64,000 bases of DNA from Thiomicrorhabdus sp. 6S3-12 (GTDB lineage Bacteria; Pseudomonadota; Gammaproteobacteria; Thiomicrospirales; Thiomicrospiraceae), in NCBI RefSeq assembly GCF_017571475.1, contig NZ_JAGETW010000001.1:434001-498000 (forward strand), given 5' to 3'. This document shows, one piece after another, positions 932 through 11,947 of the stretch. The translations under genes were made by a program, and so were the position numbers. The notes under the pieces are model-generated. The model saw only the letters and a program-made list of their open reading frames with translations, searched no databases and was not told where the DNA came from. Each line of letters opens with the position of its first letter. Position 1 is the first letter of the stretch.

Positions 932-3136
932 ATGAAAAAAAAGTTACTCGCTTCCCTGATTCCTTCTTTAATGGCGACTTCGGCCTTTGCTGCGCAGGAT
1001 CTGCCGGCAATCACCGTTGTTGAATCCTCAGAAAATTCTGAAATCAACCAGAGCAATATTTCCAAAGAAGCCATTCAATCCGGCATCAGTTCCAGCAGTG
1101 ACCTGACTGATATTCTGAGCGAATCGCCAAGCGTTTCGGTCAATCAGGCCGGCGGTATCTCTGGCTTCCCGGTCATCCGCGGCATTGCCGACAACCGCTT
1201 GAACGTTCAGTTAGACGGTATGCAGCTTGTCGCTTCGTGCCCAAACCATATGAACACGCCTCTGTCTTATGTCTCTCCGACACAGGCGGAATCGATTGAA
1301 ATCTATCCGGGAATCACCCCGGCCAGCGTCGGCGGCGACAGCATCGGCGGAAGTATTCTGGTCAAAACCGAAGACCCGGTATTCGCTCCGGCCGGCGAAC
1401 AGATCACCCAGGGTGAATATGGCGGTTATTTGCGCAGTAATGGTCAGGCGAAAGGCGCAAACCTGACTGTAACCACCGCCAGCGACAAACTGAATCTGAC
1501 CTACAAAGGCTCTTACGCGGAGTCGGGCAACTACGATGCGGCGAGTGATTTCAAAACTTTCACGACCACAACCAACCCGGCTGCCGGCACCCTTTTCACA
1601 TCCGGCACCGAGGGCTCAACAACCGATAAAGACGAAGTCGCCGGAACGGCCTACAAAGTCATGAACCACAAATTCAGCATGGCCTATAAAGGCGATGACA
1701 GCCTGTTGACCGCAAGTGTTACCAAACAAAACACGCCTTATGAGCAGTATCCTAACCAGCGTATGGATATGACGGCCAACGATAGCACCAAACTCAATGT
1801 CTCTTTCGACAAATCCCTGAACTGGGGTGAAGTTCATTTGCAAGCCTATAACGAACAGGTCGATCACGAGATGGCGTTTATGGATTATAAAATCCAGACC
1901 CAGATGCCGATGGTGACGGAAAGCACGACTAACGGTTTCAAACTGTCTGCCGACCTGCCTTTAAGCGCAAGCAGCGACCTGATTGTCGGTACCGAAATCC
2001 AGCAGTTCGCTCTGGATGACTACTGGGATCCGAATCCTGCCTCAGCGGGGATGAGCCCGAATACGTTCTGGAACATCAACGACGGTACCCGCGACCGTTA
2101 CGCGCTTTTTGCAGATTGGGAAAAACAGCTTGATAGCGCATGGAAAACCCGTCTCGGAGCACGTTTCGAGCAGGTTCTGAGCGATGCCGGCGATGTTCAG
2201 GGTTATCATGACAGCGATACCTTCACCAAACCGAACAACCAGGTTGTGACCACCAATGAACTTACGGAATCCGAAGTATTCAATGCCTCCGACCGTTCCA
2301 AAACCGATAACAACCTGAACCTGACGGCTCTGGCCAGCTATCAGCACAGCGATACCTTTGATCTGGATTTCGGTCTGGCACGTCAGGTGCGTTCGCCTAA
2401 CCTGTATGAACGTTACACCTGGTCAACCTGGACCATGGCGGCAGTCATGAACAACTTCGTCGGAGACGGCAACGGCTATGTCGGTGACATCAATCTGAAA
2501 CCGGAAGTCGCCTATACCGTCAGCGCCAATCTGGACTGGCATGCAGCAGACCGTAGCTGGAGCCTGCAGGCTATGCCGTATTTCTCCTATGTTGAGGATT
2601 ATATCGATGCGCTGGCGCTTACCAGTTTCGATGGTTTTAACGTTCTGCAATACACCAACCAGACCGCGCGTATTTACGGCGTCGATATCGCTGCAAACAC
2701 CCATATTGGCAAAAATTCATATGGTGACTGGAGCGCGAAAGCGAAAGTGAATTACGCGCGCGGCGAAAACCTCGACAGCAACGACAATCTGTACAACATT
2801 ATGCCGTTGAATGCGACGGTGACACTGATGCAGAAAATCAACCGTTGGAGCAATGCGCTTGAAGTGGTGATGGTGGATGCCAAAGACAGCGTTTCGGATG
2901 TCCGCAACGAACTTGATACTGCGGCCTATACGCTGGTAAACCTGAAACTGAGTTATTCGGTTAAACGTTTCCGCTTCGATATTGGCGTCGATAACCTGTT
3001 CGACAAGGCCTACGACCTGCCGACCGGTGGTGCCTATACGGGTGAAGGTAAAACCATGTCGATCAGCGGTGTTCCGATGTTAGCCGTACCGGGCGCAGGA
3101 CGCAGCCTGTATCTCGGGTTTAATGCCAAATTCTAA
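932..3136 (+). CDS. TonB-dependent receptor, OprC/NosA-like (probable copper uptake)
   Basis: A 734-residue TonB-dependent outer-membrane receptor. Signal peptide: residues 1-20 (MKKKLLASL... to SAFA). Plug: about 45-150, with PVIRG and the LDGMQ segment. The rest is the 22-strand barrel, ending in phenylalanine. The plug has C103-P-N-H-M107, a CxxxM motif, and the barrel side has H312-E-M314, an HxM motif. In Pseudomonas OprC the copper site is exactly a CxxxM plus HxM pair at similar spacing, so copper is the best-supported substrate; NosA-type receptors are close relatives. The gene stands alone and is followed by a terminator at 3181-3210. A siderophore substrate is less likely given the conserved metal-binding motifs. 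Confidence 0.85.
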   Translation: MKKKLLASLIPSLMATSAFAAQDLPAITVVESSENSEINQSNISKEAIQSGISSSSDLTDILSESPSVSVNQAGGISGFPVIRGIADNRLNVQLDGMQLVASCPNHMNTPLSYVSPTQAESIEIYPGITPASVGGDSIGGSILVKTEDPVFAPAGEQITQGEYGGYLRSNGQAKGANLTVTTASDKLNLTYKGSYAESGNYDAASDFKTFTTTTNPAAGTLFTSGTEGSTTDKDEVAGTAYKVMNHKFSMAYKGDDSLLTASVTKQNTPYEQYPNQRMDMTANDSTKLNVSFDKSLNWGEVHLQAYNEQVDHEMAFMDYKIQTQMPMVTESTTNGFKLSADLPLSASSDLIVGTEIQQFALDDYWDPNPASAGMSPNTFWNINDGTRDRYALFADWEKQLDSAWKTRLGARFEQVLSDAGDVQGYHDSDTFTKPNNQVVTTNELTESEVFNASDRSKTDNNLNLTALASYQHSDTFDLDFGLARQVRSPNLYERYTWSTWTMAAVMNNFVGDGNGYVGDINLKPEVAYTVSANLDWHAADRSWSLQAMPYFSYVEDYIDALALTSFDGFNVLQYTNQTARIYGVDIAANTHIGKNSYGDWSAKAKVNYARGENLDSNDNLYNIMPLNATVTLMQKINRWSNALEVVMVDAKDSVSDVRNELDTAAYTLVNLKLSYSVKRFRFDIGVDNLFDKAYDLPTGGAYTGEGKTMSISGVPMLAVPGAGRSLYLGFNAKF

Positions 3137-3180
3137 AGCAGGTTTCGGATGAAACCTCTGAGGAAATAAAAGCACAAACA

Positions 3181-3210
3181 AAAAACGGCACTTCATGTGC
3201 CGTTTTTTTT
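3181..3210. terminator. Bidirectional Rho-independent terminator
   Basis: AAAACGGCAC-TTCAT-GTGCCGTTTT: a 10-bp stem with runs of A before it and T after it. It can stop the receptor gene on the plus strand and the glycerate kinase gene on the minus strand. Confidence 0.85.
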
Positions 3211-3260
3211 GTTTTCGTTGACGCGGAAATTTTCGCCGCACCCGATGCACAGTATCCGAT

Positions 3261-4391
3261 CTACTTTAGATTCATTAAAGGCAGCAAATTCTGCAGGCAT
3301 GCGGCAAAAAGCGGTTGGGCATTCGTCATCGCATCCACTTCATGCATCGGCGTATTGACGATACTGAACAGCGAGGTAAAAGCCTCCAGCTCACTGACCC
3401 CGAGACTGCCGCAGATACCGATACACGGAATATCCCGTTCCTTAGCCATTTCGGCAATTCGCATCGGCAGCTTACCGTAAGCGGTCTGCTCGTCAATCCG
3501 TCCTTCGCCGGTAATAACCCAGTCAATCGCTTGACCGCCTACGGCTTCCATCGCCTGGTCAATCTGCAAACTCTGCCGCAAGACCTCGAAACCCGGTTCG
3601 ATTCTGGCATCAAGAAGACCGATAAAACCGGCGGCCATCCCACCGGCTGCGCCCGCTCCCGGAAGATCGCGAACATCTCTGCCGGTCTTATGCTGAATAA
3701 CATTCGCCCAGTTTTCCAGCCCTTTTTCCAGAATATCGAACTGCTGCGGCTGCAACCCTTTTTGCGGGCCGAAAACTGCCGTCGCGCCCTTGTCGCCTAA
3801 AAGCGGATTGGTGACATCGCAAGCCAGTACCCACTCAATCTCCAGAAGATGCGGAGGAATGTCGCCGACCTCGGCAACCTGTCCGAGCCCTTGCCCGCCA
3901 AGCATCACTTCCTTGCCCTTGGCGTCAAAGGCGGAAATCCCCATAGCGCTTAAAGCCGCGGCGCCGCCGTCGTTGGTCGCGGAACCTCCCAGACCGAGAA
4001 TAATCCGTTTCGCTCCCTGCTTGATGGCCGCCAAGATCAATTGCCCCGTTCCCAGACTGTGGGTCTGTAAAGGATTACGCTCGTCCGGACGAATTTTCGG
4101 CAGACCGCTGGCCTGCGCCATTTCGATAATCGCCGTCTGTGTTTCCTGCTGCCAGCCATAGGCCGCTTTGATTTTACGCCCCAGAGGATTGCTGACCCAG
4201 AGCGTTTCACGACTTGCCAGACCGGCGGTCACATAAGCATCGACAAACCCTTCTCCGCCATCTGAAAGCGGCAGACTGATCACTTCGGTCTGCGGCGCGT
4301 AAGCTTCGATCACCTGAGTGGCAATCTGACAGAATTGCGTGGCGCTCAGAGAACCTTTAAAACTATCCGGCGCCAGTAGAATTCGACTCAT
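3261..4391 (-). CDS. Glycerate kinase (GlxK/GarK family)
   Basis: A 376-residue protein matching the PF02595 glycerate kinase family in length and motifs: APDSFKGSLSA at the N-terminus, PLSDGGEGF near residue 45, LGLGGSATNDGG near 130 and ITGEGRIDEQT near 290. It phosphorylates glycerate, feeding it into lower glycolysis. It is the last gene of the minus-strand operon, 21 bases after the phosphorylase gene. Glycerate released from glucosylglycerate by that enzyme is its obvious substrate here. The family can give 2- or 3-phosphoglycerate; the sequence alone does not tell me which. Confidence 0.92.
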   Translation of the reverse strand: MSRILLAPDSFKGSLSATQFCQIATQVIEAYAPQTEVISLPLSDGGEGFVDAYVTAGLASRETLWVSNPLGRKIKAAYGWQQETQTAIIEMAQASGLPKIRPDERNPLQTHSLGTGQLILAAIKQGAKRIILGLGGSATNDGGAAALSAMGISAFDAKGKEVMLGGQGLGQVAEVGDIPPHLLEIEWVLACDVTNPLLGDKGATAVFGPQKGLQPQQFDILEKGLENWANVIQHKTGRDVRDLPGAGAAGGMAAGFIGLLDARIEPGFEVLRQSLQIDQAMEAVGGQAIDWVITGEGRIDEQTAYGKLPMRIAEMAKERDIPCIGICGSLGVSELEAFTSLFSIVNTPMHEVDAMTNAQPLFAACLQNLLPLMNLK

Positions 4392-4412
4392 GTATCCCGT
4401 AACTCCCTTTGT

Positions 4413-6206
4413 TTAACTCGTTGAGAGTGCCCAAAGTGCACTTTCTCCGTCTATCTGTTCCGGCATCAACCATAACGACTGATAAGGCTGTAGAACGAAC
4501 TTGTCGCTCTGCGACTCGACCATTGTCGCATCCAGCAGATTGACCCAGACCGGGTGTTCGTTAAAGCCGTTGATCTGCGAAAGATCGAGCATCTGAATAT
4601 CGGATGTCAGGTTATGAATCGCCAGTATCGGGAATTTTACGTCATCTCCGGCGCGCCACAAGGCAAAAAACTCTTTGCCGAGATCCAAAATCTGTTGCGG
4701 CGTATTCGGATCAAAGGCTTTGTGTTTTTTACGCAGGGTCAGCAGTCGGGTCAGACGCTTGATCACTTCGGCATTCGAACTGCGCCCGCTGTCGATCAGC
4801 GCCTGCAAATAAGGGTATTCCCATTTTCGGCGGTTAATCGAGCGTGTTCTTCCGGTTTTTTCGACCCCTTCGTGGTCGTTCGGTGTCGCCACCAGTGAAT
4901 GGATATAAAACGCCGGAACCCCTTGCAGACACATCATGATGTTCTGCGAACAGATGAAGCGCTCCACCTGCCACTGATCAGGTCCGTTACTGTTATGCGT
5001 CTCGCGCAAAGCGCTGAAATAGGTGATATTGATCTCGTACGGACTCTGGCTGCCGTCCGGATTACTTTTCATCGAAACGAAGCCGCCGAGACGATGCATA
5101 TTGGTTACCAGATCCTCGACCTCTCGCTGCGGCAGGATACCCTCTACCGGACGCAGACCGATCCCGTCGTGGGAGGCGGTGAAATTCAGAAAAGTACAAC
5201 CTTCCGGAGGCGGTTCAAGATTGAACGCCCAATCGGTCAAATAATTTCCGTCACCACGGTGCAGCGCATGCAGAATCAGCGGCGCCAGACTGAATTGATA
5301 GACCATATGTGCCTCGTCCGACTCCCCGAAATAGGAGAGGTTTTCAATATGCGGCACATTGGTTTCGGTCAGAATAATCGCATCCGGCGCAACCATCTCG
5401 ACCAGATCGCGCATCAGCTTGACCGCCTCGTGTGTCTGCGGCAGATGGATACAGTTGGTGCCGATCTGTTTCCACAGGAAAGCGATCGCATCCAGACGAA
5501 TAATCCGCGCGCCCTTACTGACGTAAAACAGCAGAACCGAAAGCATTCTCAGTAATACCAGCGGATTGGCAAAGTTCAGATCGATCTGGTCGGCACTGAA
5601 AGTCGCCCAGACCTTTTTGCGTCCGCGATGAGTATAGGCGGGAACCAGCAGCGGGGTATTCCGCGGCCGCGTCACCTGCGACAGATCCGGCTCGCCTTCG
5701 ACTTCGATAAAGAAATCGGTATAGGGTGAATTATTGGCCTTGTAGTCGGTAAACCACAGACTTTCGCGCGAAACATGATTGATCACCAGATCGAACATCA
5801 GATTATATTGCTGACTGATCTCGTCGACATGTTCCCAGTCGCCCAGATCGGGATCAACCATACAGTAATCGATGACCGAAAAGCCGTCGTCGGAGCTGTA
5901 CGGAAAAAACGGCAGTATATGCACGCAACTGATCGCACCTTTAACATGCTCGTCCAAAAAACGCTGCAAAGTCGTTAAAGGCATCTCGCCTTCCTGTAAG
6001 AAGGTATCTCCGTAGGTAATCAATACCGCATCGGTCTGATCCCATTTCGCTTCTTTGTGCGGGGTTCTTTTGGCCTGCTTGGCCAATAGCTCGATAATGC
6101 CTTTATAAGCAATCTCGACCTTGACAGAGTCTTGATAAATCGCGTCCAGACGTTTTTTGATCCGGTCCAGACCGGAATCTGCGCTGAGGTCTCGAGGTTC
6201 TGTCAT
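4413..6206 (-). CDS. GH13 subfamily 18 phosphorylase, probably glucosylglycerate phosphorylase
   Basis: A 597-residue alpha-amylase-superfamily phosphorylase of the sucrose phosphorylase group. The barrel motifs are present: FDLVINHVS, IIRLDAIAFLWK (nucleophile Asp), ILTETNVPH (acid/base Glu) and NFTASHDGIG (third acidic residue). The family includes sucrose, glucosylglycerol and glucosylglycerate phosphorylases. The neighbours (GpgS, an MPGP-type phosphatase and glycerate kinase) argue for glucosylglycerate plus phosphate giving glucose-1-phosphate plus glycerate, as in E. coli YcjM. AGGTGGG precedes the ATG. Plain sucrose phosphorylase is the main alternative; specificity is inferred from context. 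Confidence 0.85.
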   Translation of the reverse strand: MTEPRDLSADSGLDRIKKRLDAIYQDSVKVEIAYKGIIELLAKQAKRTPHKEAKWDQTDAVLITYGDTFLQEGEMPLTTLQRFLDEHVKGAISCVHILPFFPYSSDDGFSVIDYCMVDPDLGDWEHVDEISQQYNLMFDLVINHVSRESLWFTDYKANNSPYTDFFIEVEGEPDLSQVTRPRNTPLLVPAYTHRGRKKVWATFSADQIDLNFANPLVLLRMLSVLLFYVSKGARIIRLDAIAFLWKQIGTNCIHLPQTHEAVKLMRDLVEMVAPDAIILTETNVPHIENLSYFGESDEAHMVYQFSLAPLILHALHRGDGNYLTDWAFNLEPPPEGCTFLNFTASHDGIGLRPVEGILPQREVEDLVTNMHRLGGFVSMKSNPDGSQSPYEINITYFSALRETHNSNGPDQWQVERFICSQNIMMCLQGVPAFYIHSLVATPNDHEGVEKTGRTRSINRRKWEYPYLQALIDSGRSSNAEVIKRLTRLLTLRKKHKAFDPNTPQQILDLGKEFFALWRAGDDVKFPILAIHNLTSDIQMLDLSQINGFNEHPVWVNLLDATMVESQSDKFVLQPYQSLWLMPEQIDGESALWALSTS

Positions 6207-6245
6207 AGGCCCACCTTATCCTTTATATGCAATGAAAATCTGCGG

Positions 6246-7457
6246 TTACTGGTTATCCAATTCAACCGCTTCGTAAAGTTCTTCCAGAATGGTCGGACAG
6301 GCACTGGTTACCCGGTTCCAGTTCGGCAGGAATGGTCGTTCCTCGGTGTTATCTAGGAATATATCTCCCGCAGCAAGAATACTGCGCGCAAACAGTTCAA
6401 TCGCTTGCTCTTCGGCATGCAGATCGAGCGCCAGACCGTTCATCTCCGCATCAAAGGCATAGCTTTCCAGCTGATCCAATGCCGTACGCAGATAAACGGC
6501 GCGCACCGAACGCATGGTTCCGCGCGAGAAGACATGCCCGCGTGTCGCCAATTTTCTGAACAGCGACTTGGCAATGTCCTGACTCATTCGCGCCAGTCCC
6601 TTATTCTGATCATCCAGCGACAGTTCCTGATGCTTGTGATCGTAAACATCGGCAATATCGACCTGACAGATGCGGCGGTTGGAGAAATTACGGCGCATCT
6701 CCGCCAGCACACCCATTTCCAGACCCCAGTCGGCCGGAATACGCATATCCTTCAGTGCATGCGTATGAATGGCAAATTCGCCCGCCAACGCATAACGAAA
6801 ACTATCCAGATAAACCAGCAGCTCGTCCGGCCCTAAAACATCCTCCAGCGCGCGCAAAAGCGGCGTTACCAGCAATCGCGCTACGCGTCCGTTCAATTTG
6901 CCTTCAGCGTGTCGGGCATAGAACCCTTTGGAAAAGACAAAATTAAACGTGGGATGCGCGACGGGGTAGAGGAGACGTGCGAGTAGGTCACGTTGATAAG
7001 TGATAATGTCACAATCGTGTAACGCAACCACATCCACCTGCTTTGCCGCCAACACATAACCATAACACCCCCAAACATTGGTTCCTTTTCCAGGTTCGGT
7101 CGGTGCCAACTCCATTGCCTTGAGCTTATTCATGACCTTTTGCAAGCGCGGTCCGTCGTTCCATAAAATCCGATGCTCCTGTCCCAGGTCGGCAAAAAAG
7201 CCTTTGGCAAACTCAAACTGCTTTTTGTCGGCCCGATCCAGACCGATGACGATCTGGGAAAGGTAAGGAACTTTAGAAAGTTCACTGACGATGTTTTTTA
7301 AAGCGGGTGCTTCTAATTCACTAAATAAGGAAGGCAAAATCAGCCCCAGCCGATTCTGTTGAGAAAACTTTAGCAAATCCGATTCCAACTCTTCGATTTT
7401 ACGGTCGGTTAAGTTATGGAAAGTGGTTACTGTTCCGTTTTGAAAAAAATCACTCAT
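6246..7457 (-). CDS. gpgS: Glucosyl-3-phosphoglycerate synthase
   Basis: A 403-residue retaining GT81-type glycosyltransferase that joins glucose from an NDP-glucose to 3-phosphoglycerate, the first step of glucosylglycerate synthesis. A GT-A domain holds the metal-binding HDCDI motif, the VFSKGFYAR segment and NGRVARLLVTPL, a signature of GpgS/MpgS proteins. The C-terminal 150 residues are helical. The phosphatase gene upstream ends 2 bases before this start, so the two are very probably co-transcribed. A mannosyl donor cannot be excluded from sequence, but the phosphorylase next door fits glucose. Confidence 0.9.
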   Translation of the reverse strand: MSDFFQNGTVTTFHNLTDRKIEELESDLLKFSQQNRLGLILPSLFSELEAPALKNIVSELSKVPYLSQIVIGLDRADKKQFEFAKGFFADLGQEHRILWNDGPRLQKVMNKLKAMELAPTEPGKGTNVWGCYGYVLAAKQVDVVALHDCDIITYQRDLLARLLYPVAHPTFNFVFSKGFYARHAEGKLNGRVARLLVTPLLRALEDVLGPDELLVYLDSFRYALAGEFAIHTHALKDMRIPADWGLEMGVLAEMRRNFSNRRICQVDIADVYDHKHQELSLDDQNKGLARMSQDIAKSLFRKLATRGHVFSRGTMRSVRAVYLRTALDQLESYAFDAEMNGLALDLHAEEQAIELFARSILAAGDIFLDNTEERPFLPNWNRVTSACPTILEELYEAVELDNQ

Positions 7458-7459
7458 AG

Positions 7460-8341
7460 CTATTGCCTCTCAAGCTGGCTGTTTAATGGAATTAACAGGT
7501 GCTGCTGAACGACCTCCGCCCAACCCTCAGGAGCGGGATTATCGGCCTCAAAAGCACCTTTTTTATCAATTTTCAGGGTATTTCCTTTGTGCGCCGGAAG
7601 AATCAGACTTAAATCGGCCTCTTCCAGCATGCGTCGATCATTCTCTCCGTCACCCAAAGCGACGATATAAGGCGAACGACCGAAGACATTGAATGCCGTG
7701 TTCTGCACTCCGCTCTCAAATGGCGCTTTTCGGGCGCTTTCGCTGCTTTCGATGACCCATTTAAGTGCGCTTGCCTTATCATGGTGCGACATCACATGAT
7801 AAAAACGTCCGCCTTTCAGCAATCGCAGACCATGCTCCTCTAATGCCTTTTTAAATTTTTCCAGATTCGCTTCACTGTCCTGCCAGCTGATCGGCTCGCT
7901 TACCGCGCGACGCTTCGCCATCGCGGCCGATTCGTAATCCAACGAAGTGGAAGCCATGACCTCTTCGACCGAGCAGTCGCCGAACCCGGTAAAGCGCCAG
8001 CGGTATTGCTCGCGAATCTGCCCAAGAATTGTGCGAATCTCCGCGTAATCTCGACCCAACAGATACTTCTGTTGCGGGTCCTCTTTGGAGAAATAGATCA
8101 CCCCGCCATTCTCCGCAATAAACGGCGGCTGCAGATCAAGACGATCGAGCCATTGGCTGATTTCGGCAAAGGTTTTACTGGAATTCAAGATCAGCGGAAT
8201 CCCGAACTGTTTAAGCTGTTCGATCACCGGCAGAACAGGGGCATATTGATAGTCGTGGTGCCCCAGTAAAGTTCCGTCCAGATCGGTAAAAACATAGACG
8301 CCGCTTTCGGAAATGGAATTTACATAATTAAACTGATTCAT
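7460..8341 (-). CDS. HAD phosphatase, MPGP type (probable glucosyl-3-phosphoglycerate phosphatase)
   Basis: A 293-residue HAD-IIB hydrolase. Motif I is FTDLDGTLLG (nucleophile Asp), followed by LILNSSKTFAEI (motif II) and VALGDGENDRRML (motif IV). This is the mannosyl-3-phosphoglycerate phosphatase family, which also acts on glucosyl-3-phosphoglycerate. It would complete osmolyte synthesis with GpgS. I start it at the ATG at 8341; a TTG at 8353 gives four more residues but no better ribosome site. It is the first gene of the osmolyte operon. Confidence 0.88.
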   Translation of the reverse strand: MNQFNYVNSISESGVYVFTDLDGTLLGHHDYQYAPVLPVIEQLKQFGIPLILNSSKTFAEISQWLDRLDLQPPFIAENGGVIYFSKEDPQQKYLLGRDYAEIRTILGQIREQYRWRFTGFGDCSVEEVMASTSLDYESAAMAKRRAVSEPISWQDSEANLEKFKKALEEHGLRLLKGGRFYHVMSHHDKASALKWVIESSESARKAPFESGVQNTAFNVFGRSPYIVALGDGENDRRMLEEADLSLILPAHKGNTLKIDKKGAFEADNPAPEGWAEVVQQHLLIPLNSQLERQ

Positions 8342-8656
8342 AGCCGAACCCAAGCAGTAGCCATGCCATAAATTTCGATATGCCCGGAACCGCAGCTTTA
8401 AATAGGTGCAAAACGCCTGTTTTTGGTGCGCAGCAGAGGCATTGATTTTTACACTCTAACAGATTCGCGAGATAAAAAGTCATCAGGAAGAAAACTATCT
8501 TATGGCTAAGCGTTTCTGTCATTTTACTGTTACCTAAGCTTCACTCGATATTCACTTATCCCGCCGGTCGACCTCCTAACATAAGCTTGGATTTTTCAAG
8601 ACAGTGCAAGTACACGGAAAAATCCTCTCCGAGAGGCACACAATGCAAGGCTAGCT
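8342..8656. other. Divergent intergenic region with Pho box
   Basis: This 315-base region separates the osmolyte operon (minus) from the lipid-remodelling operon (plus). It holds the Pho box at 8516-8533 and a small hairpin (CCTCTC-C-GAGAGG, 8624-8636) in the btaA leader. I found no convincing promoter for the minus-strand operon and no hidden gene. Confidence 0.6.
8516..8533 (+). promoter_or_regulatory. Pho box (PhoB-binding site) upstream of btaA
   Basis: CTGTCAT-TTTA-CTGTTAC is two 7-bp direct repeats 11 bases apart. It matches the PhoB consensus (CTGTCAT, four A/T-rich bases, CTGTCAC) at all but one position. A weak -10-like GATATT follows at 8547-8552. The orientation and distance fit activation of the btaA operon when phosphate is scarce. 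Confidence 0.85.
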
Positions 8657-9913
8657 ATGACCAGCACCACTATCGACAAACCAATCAAAACCAAATCGCT
8701 TTTGAGAAAAGCCGTCGTCAACAGCTCCGTATTCAGTCGTAAAGGTTTGCTTGACCGACTTTTTACCGCCTGGTTTGACCGTCTTGTCTATCCGCAGATC
8801 TGGGAAGATCCCGAAGTCGATATCGCCGCACTTGAACTGGATCGAAATTCAAGCGTTTTCACCATCTCTTCCGGCGGCTGCAATGCCTTGAACTATCTGA
8901 CCGAAGATCCTGCATCGGTTACGGTGGTGGACTTAAACGAAGCACATATCGCGCTGATTCAGCTCAAAATCGCCGCACTGCGTCACCTTCCGGATGCGGA
9001 AAGCTTTTATCAGTTTTTCGGCCGAGCCGATACGCCCGAAAACATGGAACTTTACCGGCGTTACATCCGCCCTTATCTGGACAATAAAACGCGCTCTTAC
9101 TGGGATAAAAGAACCGGTTGGCGCCGTCAGCCGCGCATTGCGATGTTTAGCAAAGGCTTTTACCGCTTCGGATTGCTCGGGCAGTTCATCGGCTTGATTC
9201 ATTGGCTCAGCAGACGTCTCGGATATGACATCAGCCTCGTTATGCAGGCTCGAAACCGTACCGAGCAAAGAGAGTTGTTTGAAAAACACGTCGCGCCGGT
9301 TTTCGACACCCGTCTTTTACGCTGGTTGAGCAATCGCCCGATGGTGCTTTACAGTCTTGGCATCCCGCCTTCGCAATTTGACGAAATGGCGCAGGATTCC
9401 AAGCAGCAACAGCAAGGAATGCACGAACTGCTTAAGGATCGCGCCCGCAGTCTGGCCTGCGACTTTGCATTGGAGGAAAATTATTTCGCCTGGCAGGCTT
9501 TCGCCCGCGAATACGATCACGAAAAACGCATTGCGCTTCCCCGCTATCTCAAGGCGCAGCATTTCGAACACCTGAAAAGGGCTTGCCAGAAAATAGAGGT
9601 CTACCACCAGTCCATGACCGAACGGCTGCAAGCCATGCCGAATCAGAGTCTGACCTCCTACCTTCTGCTGGATGCACAGGATTGGATGAATGCACAACAG
9701 GTGAACGCTTTATGGCAGGAAATCACGCGCACCGCCAAACCCGGTGCGCGTGTGGTGTTCCGTACGGCGGCAACGTCGTCGCCGCTGGAGGAAAAACTTG
9801 ATCAGCAGCTGCTGCAACAGTGGCAGACCGACGCACAGAAAAACGCTGACTGGACGCGCCGCGATCGCTCGGCGATCTACGGAGCAGTTTTCGTTTATCA
9901 CAAACAGGCCTGA
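8657..9913 (+). CDS. btaA: BtaA-type SAM:diacylglycerol 3-amino-3-carboxypropyltransferase
   Basis: A 418-residue DUF3419/BtaA protein, the usual length of bacterial BtaA. Recognisable pieces are YPQIWEDPEVD (about 51-61), the SAM-site strand FTISSGGCNAL (about 74) and VVDLNEAHIAL. BtaA moves the aminocarboxypropyl group of S-adenosylmethionine to diacylglycerol, giving diacylglyceryl-homoserine, the precursor of the phosphorus-free betaine lipid DGTS. It is the first gene behind the Pho box, with AAGG a few bases before the ATG. The N-methyltransferase BtaB, normally next to it, is not in this window. Confidence 0.88.
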   Translation: MTSTTIDKPIKTKSLLRKAVVNSSVFSRKGLLDRLFTAWFDRLVYPQIWEDPEVDIAALELDRNSSVFTISSGGCNALNYLTEDPASVTVVDLNEAHIALIQLKIAALRHLPDAESFYQFFGRADTPENMELYRRYIRPYLDNKTRSYWDKRTGWRRQPRIAMFSKGFYRFGLLGQFIGLIHWLSRRLGYDISLVMQARNRTEQRELFEKHVAPVFDTRLLRWLSNRPMVLYSLGIPPSQFDEMAQDSKQQQQGMHELLKDRARSLACDFALEENYFAWQAFAREYDHEKRIALPRYLKAQHFEHLKRACQKIEVYHQSMTERLQAMPNQSLTSYLLLDAQDWMNAQQVNALWQEITRTAKPGARVVFRTAATSSPLEEKLDQQLLQQWQTDAQKNADWTRRDRSAIYGAVFVYHKQA

Positions 9914-9937
9914 CATCCCCAACAGACAAAATCCGTT

Positions 9938-11032
9938 ATGAGCATTCAACCACAAGATTTTCATACATTGCGTTTTGTGCAGCTATACAACAGCTTTGAT
10001 CCGGGACAGGCGATCCGCAACGTACAAACCGAGCTGGACATTTTCCATCACGAAAACCTTCTGTTTCCGGTCAGCTATAACGAAAGCGAGTACCATAACA
10101 GCTACATCTGCTCCTTTCATACCGCCTATATCGACTATGCGCGGGAAGAGCTGCAACTGATCAAATCACCGGTACAGAGATGGCTGCTGCACAAAGCCTC
10201 CTATCTGGCGTCCGTCTGGTTGAAAATGGCGCATATCAACCACAGCGTCTGTCTCAACAACTGGCTCTTTTCGACCAACCCCCTGCCGTCGCTTTCGGCT
10301 CAGGAAGTTTTTGCGATTACCCATAAACTGGTGCTGCAAAACCCGTTTCATAATCTGACAATCCGCTCTCTGAATGCAAAGCACAATGGCGAACTGATCG
10401 AGCACCTCACAGCCCAAGGCTGGCTGATGCTTCCGGCGCGCCAAGTGTATCTGTTCCCCAAAAACGGCGACTGGCAGAAACGGAATAATGTCAAAAACGA
10501 TCAACGACTGCTGCGTAAAACCGCGCTAACCCTGCTTCAGCCGCAAGAACACTGCAAAGCGGATTTCAAAGAAATCGAACAGTGTTTTCACCGCCTTTTT
10601 ATCGACAAGCATTCGCAGTTTAATCCGCAATACAGCGCACAGTATCTGTGGATGCTGCACCGACAAAACCTTATGGAATTTTTCAGTTTTCGGGACAGTG
10701 CCGGGAGAATTCTGGCCACTCTGGGCGTTTTTACCGAAAACGGCGTAATGACGGCTCCGATCGTCGGCTATGACACCCATGCGCAGAAAAAGCTCGGACT
10801 CTACCGTCTGGTCATTGCACAACTGTGCAAACTCGCCATGGAACGGCAACTCGATCTGAATCTGAGTTCCGGAGCCGGAGAGTTCAAACGCAACCGGGGA
10901 GGTGAAGCGACGATGGAATACACCGCTCTATACTGCCGCCACCTGCCTTTTAAACAGCGTTGGCTGCTGCACAGCTTCAGCAAACTACTGAACCGCTACG
11001 CCCCTAAACTGTTTACCGAAAACCAAATCTAA
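9938..11032 (+). CDS. GNAT/FemAB-like acyltransferase in the btaA operon
   Basis: A 364-residue cytosolic protein with no signal peptide or clear membrane span. The C-terminal half looks like a GNAT fold of the Acetyltransf_6 type: IVGYDTHAQKKLGLYRLV, then LNLSSGAGEFKRNRGG, where an FKR-RGG segment is typical. The N-terminal half (1-190) is probably a degenerate second GNAT lobe. It lies 24 bases after btaA and 24 before the phosphoesterase gene, so all three are one operon. Substrate unknown. It sits where btaB would be expected; modification of the free amino group of diacylglyceryl-homoserine is an attractive guess, not a demonstrated role. Confidence 0.65.
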   Translation: MSIQPQDFHTLRFVQLYNSFDPGQAIRNVQTELDIFHHENLLFPVSYNESEYHNSYICSFHTAYIDYAREELQLIKSPVQRWLLHKASYLASVWLKMAHINHSVCLNNWLFSTNPLPSLSAQEVFAITHKLVLQNPFHNLTIRSLNAKHNGELIEHLTAQGWLMLPARQVYLFPKNGDWQKRNNVKNDQRLLRKTALTLLQPQEHCKADFKEIEQCFHRLFIDKHSQFNPQYSAQYLWMLHRQNLMEFFSFRDSAGRILATLGVFTENGVMTAPIVGYDTHAQKKLGLYRLVIAQLCKLAMERQLDLNLSSGAGEFKRNRGGEATMEYTALYCRHLPFKQRWLLHSFSKLLNRYAPKLFTENQI

Positions 11033-11056
11033 TTTCAGCTTTACGAGAGCCCGCTT

Positions 11057-11947
11057 ATGACACAGTCGCAACAAACCGATACTCCTCTCGACAGAGAACA
11101 TTGGCTCGCTTCGGCAATGGCCGAAGAGCCGCGCACGGAAAACCTCTCCGACGAGCCGACACGCTACCGGACGATCTGGATTTCCGACTGCCACCTCGGC
11201 TCCAAAGGCTGTAAAGCGGACTTTCTCAGCGACTTTTTGAAACAGCACGACTGCGAGAAACTGATTCTCAACGGCGACATCATCGACGGTTGGCGCATGC
11301 GCAAAAAGATTCACTGGCCTCAGGCGCACACCAATGTCATCCGCCGCATTCTTACGCGCGCCAAACGCGGCACTCAGGTGATCTATATCACCGGAAACCA
11401 CGACGATATGCTGCGCCGTTATTCCGGCATCGATTTCGGCAACATTCATCTGGTCGATGAACACGTCCATATCACCGCCGACGGCAAAAAACTGTGGTGC
11501 GTTCACGGCGACCAGTTCGACGGCGTGATCCAGTGCCATCGCTGGCTCGCCTTTGTCGGCGATTTTCTGTACGAGACTGTCCTGACCTGGAACCGCTGGT
11601 TCAATAAAGCCCGCGCCCGTCTCGGCTTCGGCTACTGGTCTTTATCGGCTTATCTCAAACACAAGGTCAAACGCGCGGTAAACTTCATCTCCGACTTTGA
11701 ACACGCCGTCGCCAAAAGCGGCAAACAGAAAAAAATGGACGGCGTCGTCTGCGGCCATATCCATCATGCCGAAATCCGTGAGATGGAAGACGGCGTGATG
11801 TATTTCAACAGCGGCGACTGGGTTGAATCCTGCACCGCGCTGGCGGAGGATTTCGACGGCAAGATCCACCTGATCCGCTGGATCGATATCGATCATCAGA
11901 GCGCCAAACAGCTCACTGCACAACAGACTTCCGTCGAAGCGGCTTAG
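11057..11947 (+). CDS. plcP: PlcP/LpxH-type metallophosphoesterase (probable phospholipase C)
   Basis: A 296-residue calcineurin-like phosphoesterase with all metal-site motifs: SDCHLGS (D, H), NGDIID (D), GNHDDM (N, H), VHGDQFD (H) and CGHIHHAEI (GHxH). Such proteins are often labelled UDP-2,3-diacylglucosamine hydrolase, but the longer, soluble relatives include Sinorhizobium PlcP, which splits phospholipids into diacylglycerol and phosphorylated headgroup under phosphate starvation. Its place behind btaA and a Pho box favours PlcP: it would supply the diacylglycerol that BtaA uses and free phosphate. The LpxH role remains possible. Confidence 0.82.
   Translation: MTQSQQTDTPLDREHWLASAMAEEPRTENLSDEPTRYRTIWISDCHLGSKGCKADFLSDFLKQHDCEKLILNGDIIDGWRMRKKIHWPQAHTNVIRRILTRAKRGTQVIYITGNHDDMLRRYSGIDFGNIHLVDEHVHITADGKKLWCVHGDQFDGVIQCHRWLAFVGDFLYETVLTWNRWFNKARARLGFGYWSLSAYLKHKVKRAVNFISDFEHAVAKSGKQKKMDGVVCGHIHHAEIREMEDGVMYFNSGDWVESCTALAEDFDGKIHLIRWIDIDHQSAKQLTAQQTSVEAA

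Follow-up and report, generated by a model that had tools for sequence, protein, structure and literature searches.

In a 64,000-nucleotide stretch of the genome of Thiomicrorhabdus sp. 6S3-12 (contig NZ_JAGETW010000001.1, positions 434,001 to 498,000; hereafter the window), the betaine-lipid gene btaA is followed by a gene encoding a transferase whose predicted structure has a double-GNAT fold, in the slot where the methyltransferase gene btaB is found in other bacteria, and then by a plcP-like gene. The arrangement is conserved in the family of the window, no recognisable BtaB was found in the genome, and a Pho-box-like site lies upstream of btaA. Judged from the genes it contains, the operon represents a new form of the betaine-lipid pathway. 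We propose, with a probability of slightly under one half (about 0.48), that it is a phosphate-starvation lipid-remodelling operon in which BtaB, the second enzyme of diacylglyceryl-N,N,N-trimethylhomoserine (DGTS) synthesis, has been exchanged for a transferase that would amidate diacylglyceryl-homoserine (DGHS), the likeliest donor being an aminoacyl-tRNA. The relevant features of the window are as follows.

8516-8533, plus strand: Pho-box-like site CTGTCATTTTACTGTTAC upstream of btaA, matching a Pho-box consensus at 13 of 18 positions
8657-9913, plus strand: btaA (DUF3419), 418 amino acids, PF11899 at 360 bits
9938-11032, plus strand: double-GNAT FemX/MprF-like transferase in the btaB slot, 364 amino acids, assigned by fold model and motifs
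11057-11947, plus strand: plcP-like metallophosphoesterase, 296 amino acids, PF00149

The three open reading frames, the 364-residue middle protein and the gaps of 24 bases on either side of its gene were as described in the first-pass annotation, a model's reading of the sequence.

The second enzyme of the btaA locus is exchanged in the family of the window

We determined the distribution of both genes in 95 genomes (that of the window and its relatives). The transferase was found in 32 and DUF3419 in 33, the same 32 genomes plus one (G060) encoding a distant DUF3419 protein. Of the 60 family genomes, that of the window included, 32 carried both btaA and the transferase gene, 28 carried neither and none was discordant (Fisher p 1e-17), and within the genus 20 of 32 genomes carried both and 12 neither (Fisher p 4e-9); since the genomes are related, the trials behind these p values are not independent. 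The pair is patchy even within the genus and no genome is discordant, indicating that btaA and the transferase gene have been kept or lost together. Of the 33 relatives with DUF3419, the locus was fetched for 30 (all but G004, G049 and G060). In the fetched btaA loci of family genomes, the transferase gene followed btaA on the same strand in 30 out of 30, and BtaB was present in none of those loci.

Outside the family, BtaB was the neighbour in 46 out of 47 full-length btaA loci and the transferase in one. At the class level, 30 genomes presented a DUF3419 match, of which 20 were full length (that of the window included), one was fragmentary (G296), two were under the cut-off (G237 and G247) and seven were divergent. 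BtaB adjoined btaA in 18 of the 19 full-length loci other than that of the window; in the exception, G116 from another family, the transferase adjoined btaA, the gene being cut by the contig end. At the phylum level, 32 genomes provided 28 further full-length loci (G617 and G463 were weak or partial, and the remaining two were the window itself and a duplicate of L152); BtaB adjoined btaA in all 28, in one case (L208) on the opposite strand, and the transferase in none. Because BtaB holds the slot in nearly all btaA loci outside the family, the second gene has been exchanged in the family of the window, a conserved exchange in an otherwise standard btaA locus. The first-pass annotation, which had placed a GNAT-like gene where btaB is expected, was borne out by these results, and the link between that gene and btaA proved to be conserved across the family. 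Separately, seven divergent gammaproteobacterial DUF3419 genes (L171-L177, 202-247 bits) lacked both BtaB and the transferase in the 1.5 kb that was fetched.

A scan of named genomes listed 89 candidates encoding a relative of the transferase, of which 80 were kept, and btaA adjoined the transferase gene in 22 of these 80 loci. Loci with the pair came mostly from Thiomicrorhabdus, Hydrogenovibrio, Thiomicrospira or Thiotrichales metagenome-assembled genomes (MAGs), and also from the betaproteobacterium Vogesella oryzae.

BtaB is not recognised elsewhere in the genomes

Using the Sinorhizobium meliloti BtaB as a query, no match at E ≤ 1e-10 was found in any of the 32 genomes carrying btaA and the transferase gene. 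A profile was then built from 20 BtaBs, against which left-out true BtaBs scored 187-270 bits, and 60 genomes were searched, including 23 btaA-positive family members. The genome of the window gave no BtaB-like score; its best match, at 42.5 bits, was UbiG (278 bits to TIGR01983). In the 23 btaA-positive family genomes the best scores were only 63 and 58.5 bits (G010 and G024), and the proteins concerned were nearest to the BioC and UbiE models, yet under the cut-offs of those models. G116 and Vogesella gave no BtaB-like score either (46.0 and 40.8 bits). Together with the locus survey, a best match in the genome of the window that is UbiG and lies far under the range of true BtaBs establishes the exchange of the second enzyme as real and conserved; the check for btaB elsewhere in the genome that accompanied the first-pass annotation returned none.

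BtaA, the PlcP-like protein and the upstream region

Apart from the btaA gene of the window, the 2.55-Mb genome contained no DUF3419 match. An alignment in two pieces, spanning 97% of this gene, showed 45% identity to a stretch of S. meliloti pSymB, directly after which comes a class I methyltransferase gene of the btaB type. The btaA product is predicted to be an S-adenosylmethionine:diacylglycerol 3-amino-3-carboxypropyltransferase, making DGHS. The plcP-like gene encodes a calcineurin-type phosphoesterase, LpxH-like yet scoring 38.9 bits against an LpxH cut-off of 134. In eight other genomes, the btaA-btaB loci that were fetched included genes 45-54% identical to this plcP-like gene. The combination of plcP with btaA and btaB corresponds to the arrangement named type 1 in PMC4796936. 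From its similarity, the product is predicted to act as a phospholipase C that frees diacylglycerol from phospholipids in phosphate starvation.

The region upstream of btaA was scored for Pho boxes in 18 of 20 named loci, the other two giving no usable upstream stretch. A score of at least 13 of 18 was found in 13 of these 18 named relatives, versus 3 of 116 other upstream regions from the same loci, and in 6 of 364 stretches of the window (Fisher p 1e-11, the genomes being related). As for other signals, there was one sigma-70-like site, on the minus strand, versus 2.8 in shuffled sequences, and terminator-like sites were within background. Just upstream of btaA, positions 8589-8625 formed a perfect inverted repeat with arms of 9 bases (GGATTTTTC/GAAAAATCC) and a spacer of 19. 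Further upstream, the minus strand of the window carried a row consisting of an alpha-amylase-family gene, a gene of 403 amino acids with no Pfam match and a HAD phosphatase gene (4413-8353), which we take to resemble sucrose-phosphorylase-like and glucosylglycerate-type osmolyte genes.

The transferase family extends beyond btaA loci

A tree of 69 rows was built with a midpoint root (short pieces, copies, L079, L143 and L150 were omitted). In it, 21 btaA-linked proteins and L085 were split from the other 47 rows with a branch support of 99/96, and the Vogesella protein had a long branch. Gene neighbours were surveyed in 73 loci, eight of the 80 kept loci being contigs of one Ralstonia assembly, of which seven were skipped. 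The sister-group side was found largely in a different recurrent cluster that lacked btaA. The families recorded in the 73 loci were ATP-grasp (30), OleD-like reductase (28), Rieske oxygenase (27), lactonase-like metallo-beta-lactamase-fold protein (24), KASIII (20) and F390-synthetase-related adenylating enzyme (19), each family being named from one representative protein. To our knowledge, no function has been assigned to this cluster. Varying sets of its genes, together with a relative of the transferase, were present in L149 (positions 1394-8066) and in L112, L118, L142, L144 and L151, and the hosts of the cluster were Proteobacteria, Cyanobacteria, Bacillota, Bacteroidota and Verrucomicrobiota. 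A Shewanella surugensis locus (L115, 5896-9283) contained two transferase-family genes, copies that have diverged, and the MAG of L085, labelled Synechococcaceae, had a divergent BtaA-BtaB pair on another contig (L257), where mis-binning is possible. Altogether, the interpretation given in the first-pass annotation held for the btaB slot, for the lack of btaB elsewhere and for the conserved link with btaA; the protein family, on the other hand, is not confined to btaA operons.

The transferase is predicted to have a double-GNAT fold

The GNAT-like label given to the protein in the first-pass annotation was weak by sequence, with PF13480 (Acetyltransf_6) at 19.3 bits and a curated cut-off of 22, and gained its support from the double-GNAT fold of the model. 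PF13480 matched 22 out of 30 family members at E ≤ 0.1, that of the window included (best 2.8e-7), and the sister-group homologue of L149 scored 32.3 bits. PF02388 (FemAB) matched neither the window protein at E ≤ 1 nor any of the 30 members at E ≤ 0.1; one of the 30 presented a weak match to PF04339 (FemAB_like, 0.015). PF09924, the MprF synthase domain, had no match at E ≤ 1 in the transferase and none in the genome at E ≤ 0.001. A PDB sequence search with the window protein returned no match at E ≤ 1, a PDB search with profile A2 nothing credible (best E 0.13, an unrelated flavoprotein), and a scan of viral contigs with the window protein no relative.

The AlphaFold2 model of the window transferase had a predicted local distance difference test score (pLDDT) of 93.6 and a predicted template modelling score of 0.90. 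The top five Foldseek rows were the aminoacyl-tRNA-dependent Sbb17, Sba18 and MprF/alanyl-phosphatidylglycerol synthase (A-PGS) of Pseudomonas (E 3e-10 to 7e-9), and the sixth was a protein of unknown function. VIA-align 2, in which a difference of less than one Z unit counts as a tie, aligned the model to FemX (4ii9) with a Z of 16.9 (root-mean-square deviation, rmsd, 3.7; 273 aligned), to Sbb17 and Sba18 with 16.8 and 16.6, to MprF with up to 14.7, to the acetyl-CoA (coenzyme A) enzyme VipF with 13.6 (rmsd 6.5) and to N-myristoyltransferase with 11.7. The model of the sister-group L149 protein (pLDDT 94.6) gave 16.7 for Sbb17, 16.4 for FemX, 15.1 for MprF and 14.7 for VipF, the last two being tied because they are less than one Z unit apart. 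With the window model the first 16 rows were all aminoacyl-tRNA enzymes, and with the sister-group model the first 12. As the modelled proteins are homologous and some alignment rows are common to both, the two results are not independent tests.

Among 70 family members, 18 columns were invariant, including S112-T113, R143, R168, D188, T272, P274, G277-Y278, Y289, F316-K317, R320-G321 and E327. According to PMC4964394, F304 and K305 of FemX are essential; according to PMC12945691, Lys329 of DhpH-C is essential and Phe328 contributes. When the transferase family was aligned by hhalign to 17 FemAB proteins, F316-K317 was paired with F304-K305 of FemX at an insignificant level (probability 0.12%, E 0.46), and because of this the pairing is taken as a suggestion. 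The window P-loop, Lys-x-x-Gly-x-Tyr, falls short of the CoA consensus of GNATs, Gln/Arg-x-x-Gly-x-Gly/Ala (PMC4964394), its last position being Tyr in 70 out of 70 members. The net charge of the window protein was +10 in the second domain and -1 in the first.

Proposed pathway and alternative explanations

We infer every chemical step of the pathway, as well as its acceptor, donor and amino acid. PlcP would cleave phospholipids to diacylglycerol, onto which BtaA would move the 3-amino-3-carboxypropyl group of S-adenosylmethionine to give DGHS. Instead of the three N-methylations carried out by BtaB, the transferase would convert the free amine of DGHS into an amide, most likely using an aminoacyl-tRNA as the donor and with Lys317 in the role of FemX Lys305. 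The product would be aminoacyl-DGHS, a phosphorus-free aminolipid. An aminoacyl-tRNA is the favoured donor because of the ranking of the fold matches, the Phe-Lys pair and the altered P-loop, and aminoacylation of DGHS is favoured over fatty acylation. The attachment of lysine to diacylglycerol by LysX, reported in PMC10580965, is a precedent for the tRNA-dependent modification of a neutral glycerolipid. The fuller claim, in which an amino acid derived from aminoacyl-tRNA would be placed on DGHS in connection with phosphate-starvation remodelling by an enzyme with no recognisable sequence kinship to MprF, to give a phosphorus-free membrane lipid of which we found no description, is put forward a little more tentatively than the pathway itself.

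Several observations weigh against aminoacylation of DGHS as the function of the operon. A common fold proves no function, and in both models CoA-dependent double GNATs such as VipF are ranked in among the lower MprF and FemA chains. The sequence kinship of the transferase with FemAB is not significant by the above hhalign comparison, and the contributing Asn325 of DhpH-C, four residues before the Lys, corresponds by count to Ala313. Most members retain the start of the CoA P-loop, with Gln/Arg/Lys in 58 of 70 (Gln/Arg in 42) and Gly in 59. In five of the 18 named regions upstream of btaA the Pho-box score reaches just 11 or 12, values indistinguishable from those of shuffled sequence. The sister group occurs in a cluster without btaA, implying that DGHS is not the general acceptor and that the chemistry of the family is wider. 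Finally, the L085 MAG carries a gene of the btaA-linked group (5896-7101) in a locus without btaA, the contig ending soon after.

The alternative that follows the first-pass annotation in proposing acylation appears unlikely, though it is the strongest of those considered. In it, the transferase would N-acylate DGHS from CoA or acyl carrier protein, the acyl group being fatty or short, to give an N-acyl-homoserine glycerolipid. Such a reaction chemically resembles that of OlsB on ornithine and that of LuxI on S-adenosylmethionine. The GNAT fold of the model, the largely kept Gln/Arg/Lys-x-x-Gly and the matches to CoA-using double GNATs (VipF with both models, N-myristoyltransferase with that of the window) agree with it, as does the fact that the N-acyltransferases OlsB and GlsB make other aminolipids (PMC6298996). 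Atypical P-loops are also known in real acetyltransferases, according to PMC4964394, so that the P-loop deviation is compatible with CoA use. Against N-acylation stand the aminoacyl-tRNA enzymes that occupy the top structural rows of both models and the Tyr that ends the P-loop in all 70 members.

It is considerably less probable that DGHS is the final lipid, with the transferase acting on some other operon product or on a different phosphorus-free lipid. The KASIII/ATP-grasp/F390/Rieske cluster of the sister group, which lacks btaA, and the L085 member would fit this explanation, which has to face the strict co-occurrence and same-strand adjacency of the transferase with btaA in the slot that BtaB holds elsewhere. 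More improbable still is that DGTS is made by an unrecognised methyltransferase encoded elsewhere, with the transferase as an add-on. Class I methyltransferases are numerous, 58 of the 60 genomes having some match to the BtaB profile at E ≤ 1e-6, but none scores like BtaB, either in the genome of the window or in the 23 family genomes. An assembly artefact is ruled out by the recurrence of the arrangement in named isolates (Thiomicrorhabdus marina, T. chilensis, T. arctica, T. heinhorstiae, T. cannonii and two Hydrogenovibrio strains), and a chance neighbour by the co-occurrence table (32/28/0) and the same-strand adjacency in all fetched loci.

Significance and comparison with known systems

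The presence of btaA is taken as a sign of DGTS production in genome and metagenome surveys. If the operon makes a lipid other than DGTS, the btaA signal of sulfur-oxidising Gammaproteobacteria would be partly misread, an unrecognised lipid headgroup may occur in culturable species, and a widespread transferase family, for which we found no function, would gain one, together with a handle on the cluster of the sister group. The missing BtaB and the transferase of another fold in its slot, in Thiomicrorhabdus and its relatives, predict a different membrane lipid that can be searched for directly. Judged by titles and abstract openings, a limited test, the open-licence literature gave no description of a btaA-linked GNAT gene, and no open-licence paper on a Hydrogenovibrio with a betaine lipid was found.

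The operon resembles the BtaA-BtaB pathway of DGTS synthesis in its BtaA, its PlcP-like phosphoesterase, its compact organization and its Pho-box-like site. It differs from that pathway in that no BtaB was found in the window operon or in the genome and in that a double-GNAT transferase occupies the slot. With OlsB and GlsB, which are N-acyltransferases of the phosphorus-free ornithine and glutamine lipids (PMC6298996), the transferase would share the formation of such an aminolipid, unlike them on a diacylglycerol-based acceptor. OlsB-/GlsB-, LuxI- and NodA-type proteins were absent from the Pfam, NCBIfam and listed structural matches of the transferase, an absence that excludes nothing.

The closest structural likeness is to FemABX and to the streptothricin enzymes Sbb17 and Sba18, with which the transferase shares the double-GNAT fold over most of the chain. 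It also has an invariant Phe-Lys in the second domain, tentatively paired with that of FemX, and a basic segment (180-196) is a possible further likeness to FemABX. Unlike in FemABX and Sbb17, there is no significant sequence match, and the genomic link is to lipid synthesis and not to peptidoglycan or an antibiotic. MprF and LysX, which produce lysyl- and alanyl-phosphatidylglycerol and lysyl-diacylglycerol, are similar in the fold of the synthase domain and in placing an amino acid on a lipid, as is predicted here. In contrast to them, the transferase has no PF09924 match, its 364 residues leave no room for a flippase domain, and its predicted acceptor would be the amine of DGHS.

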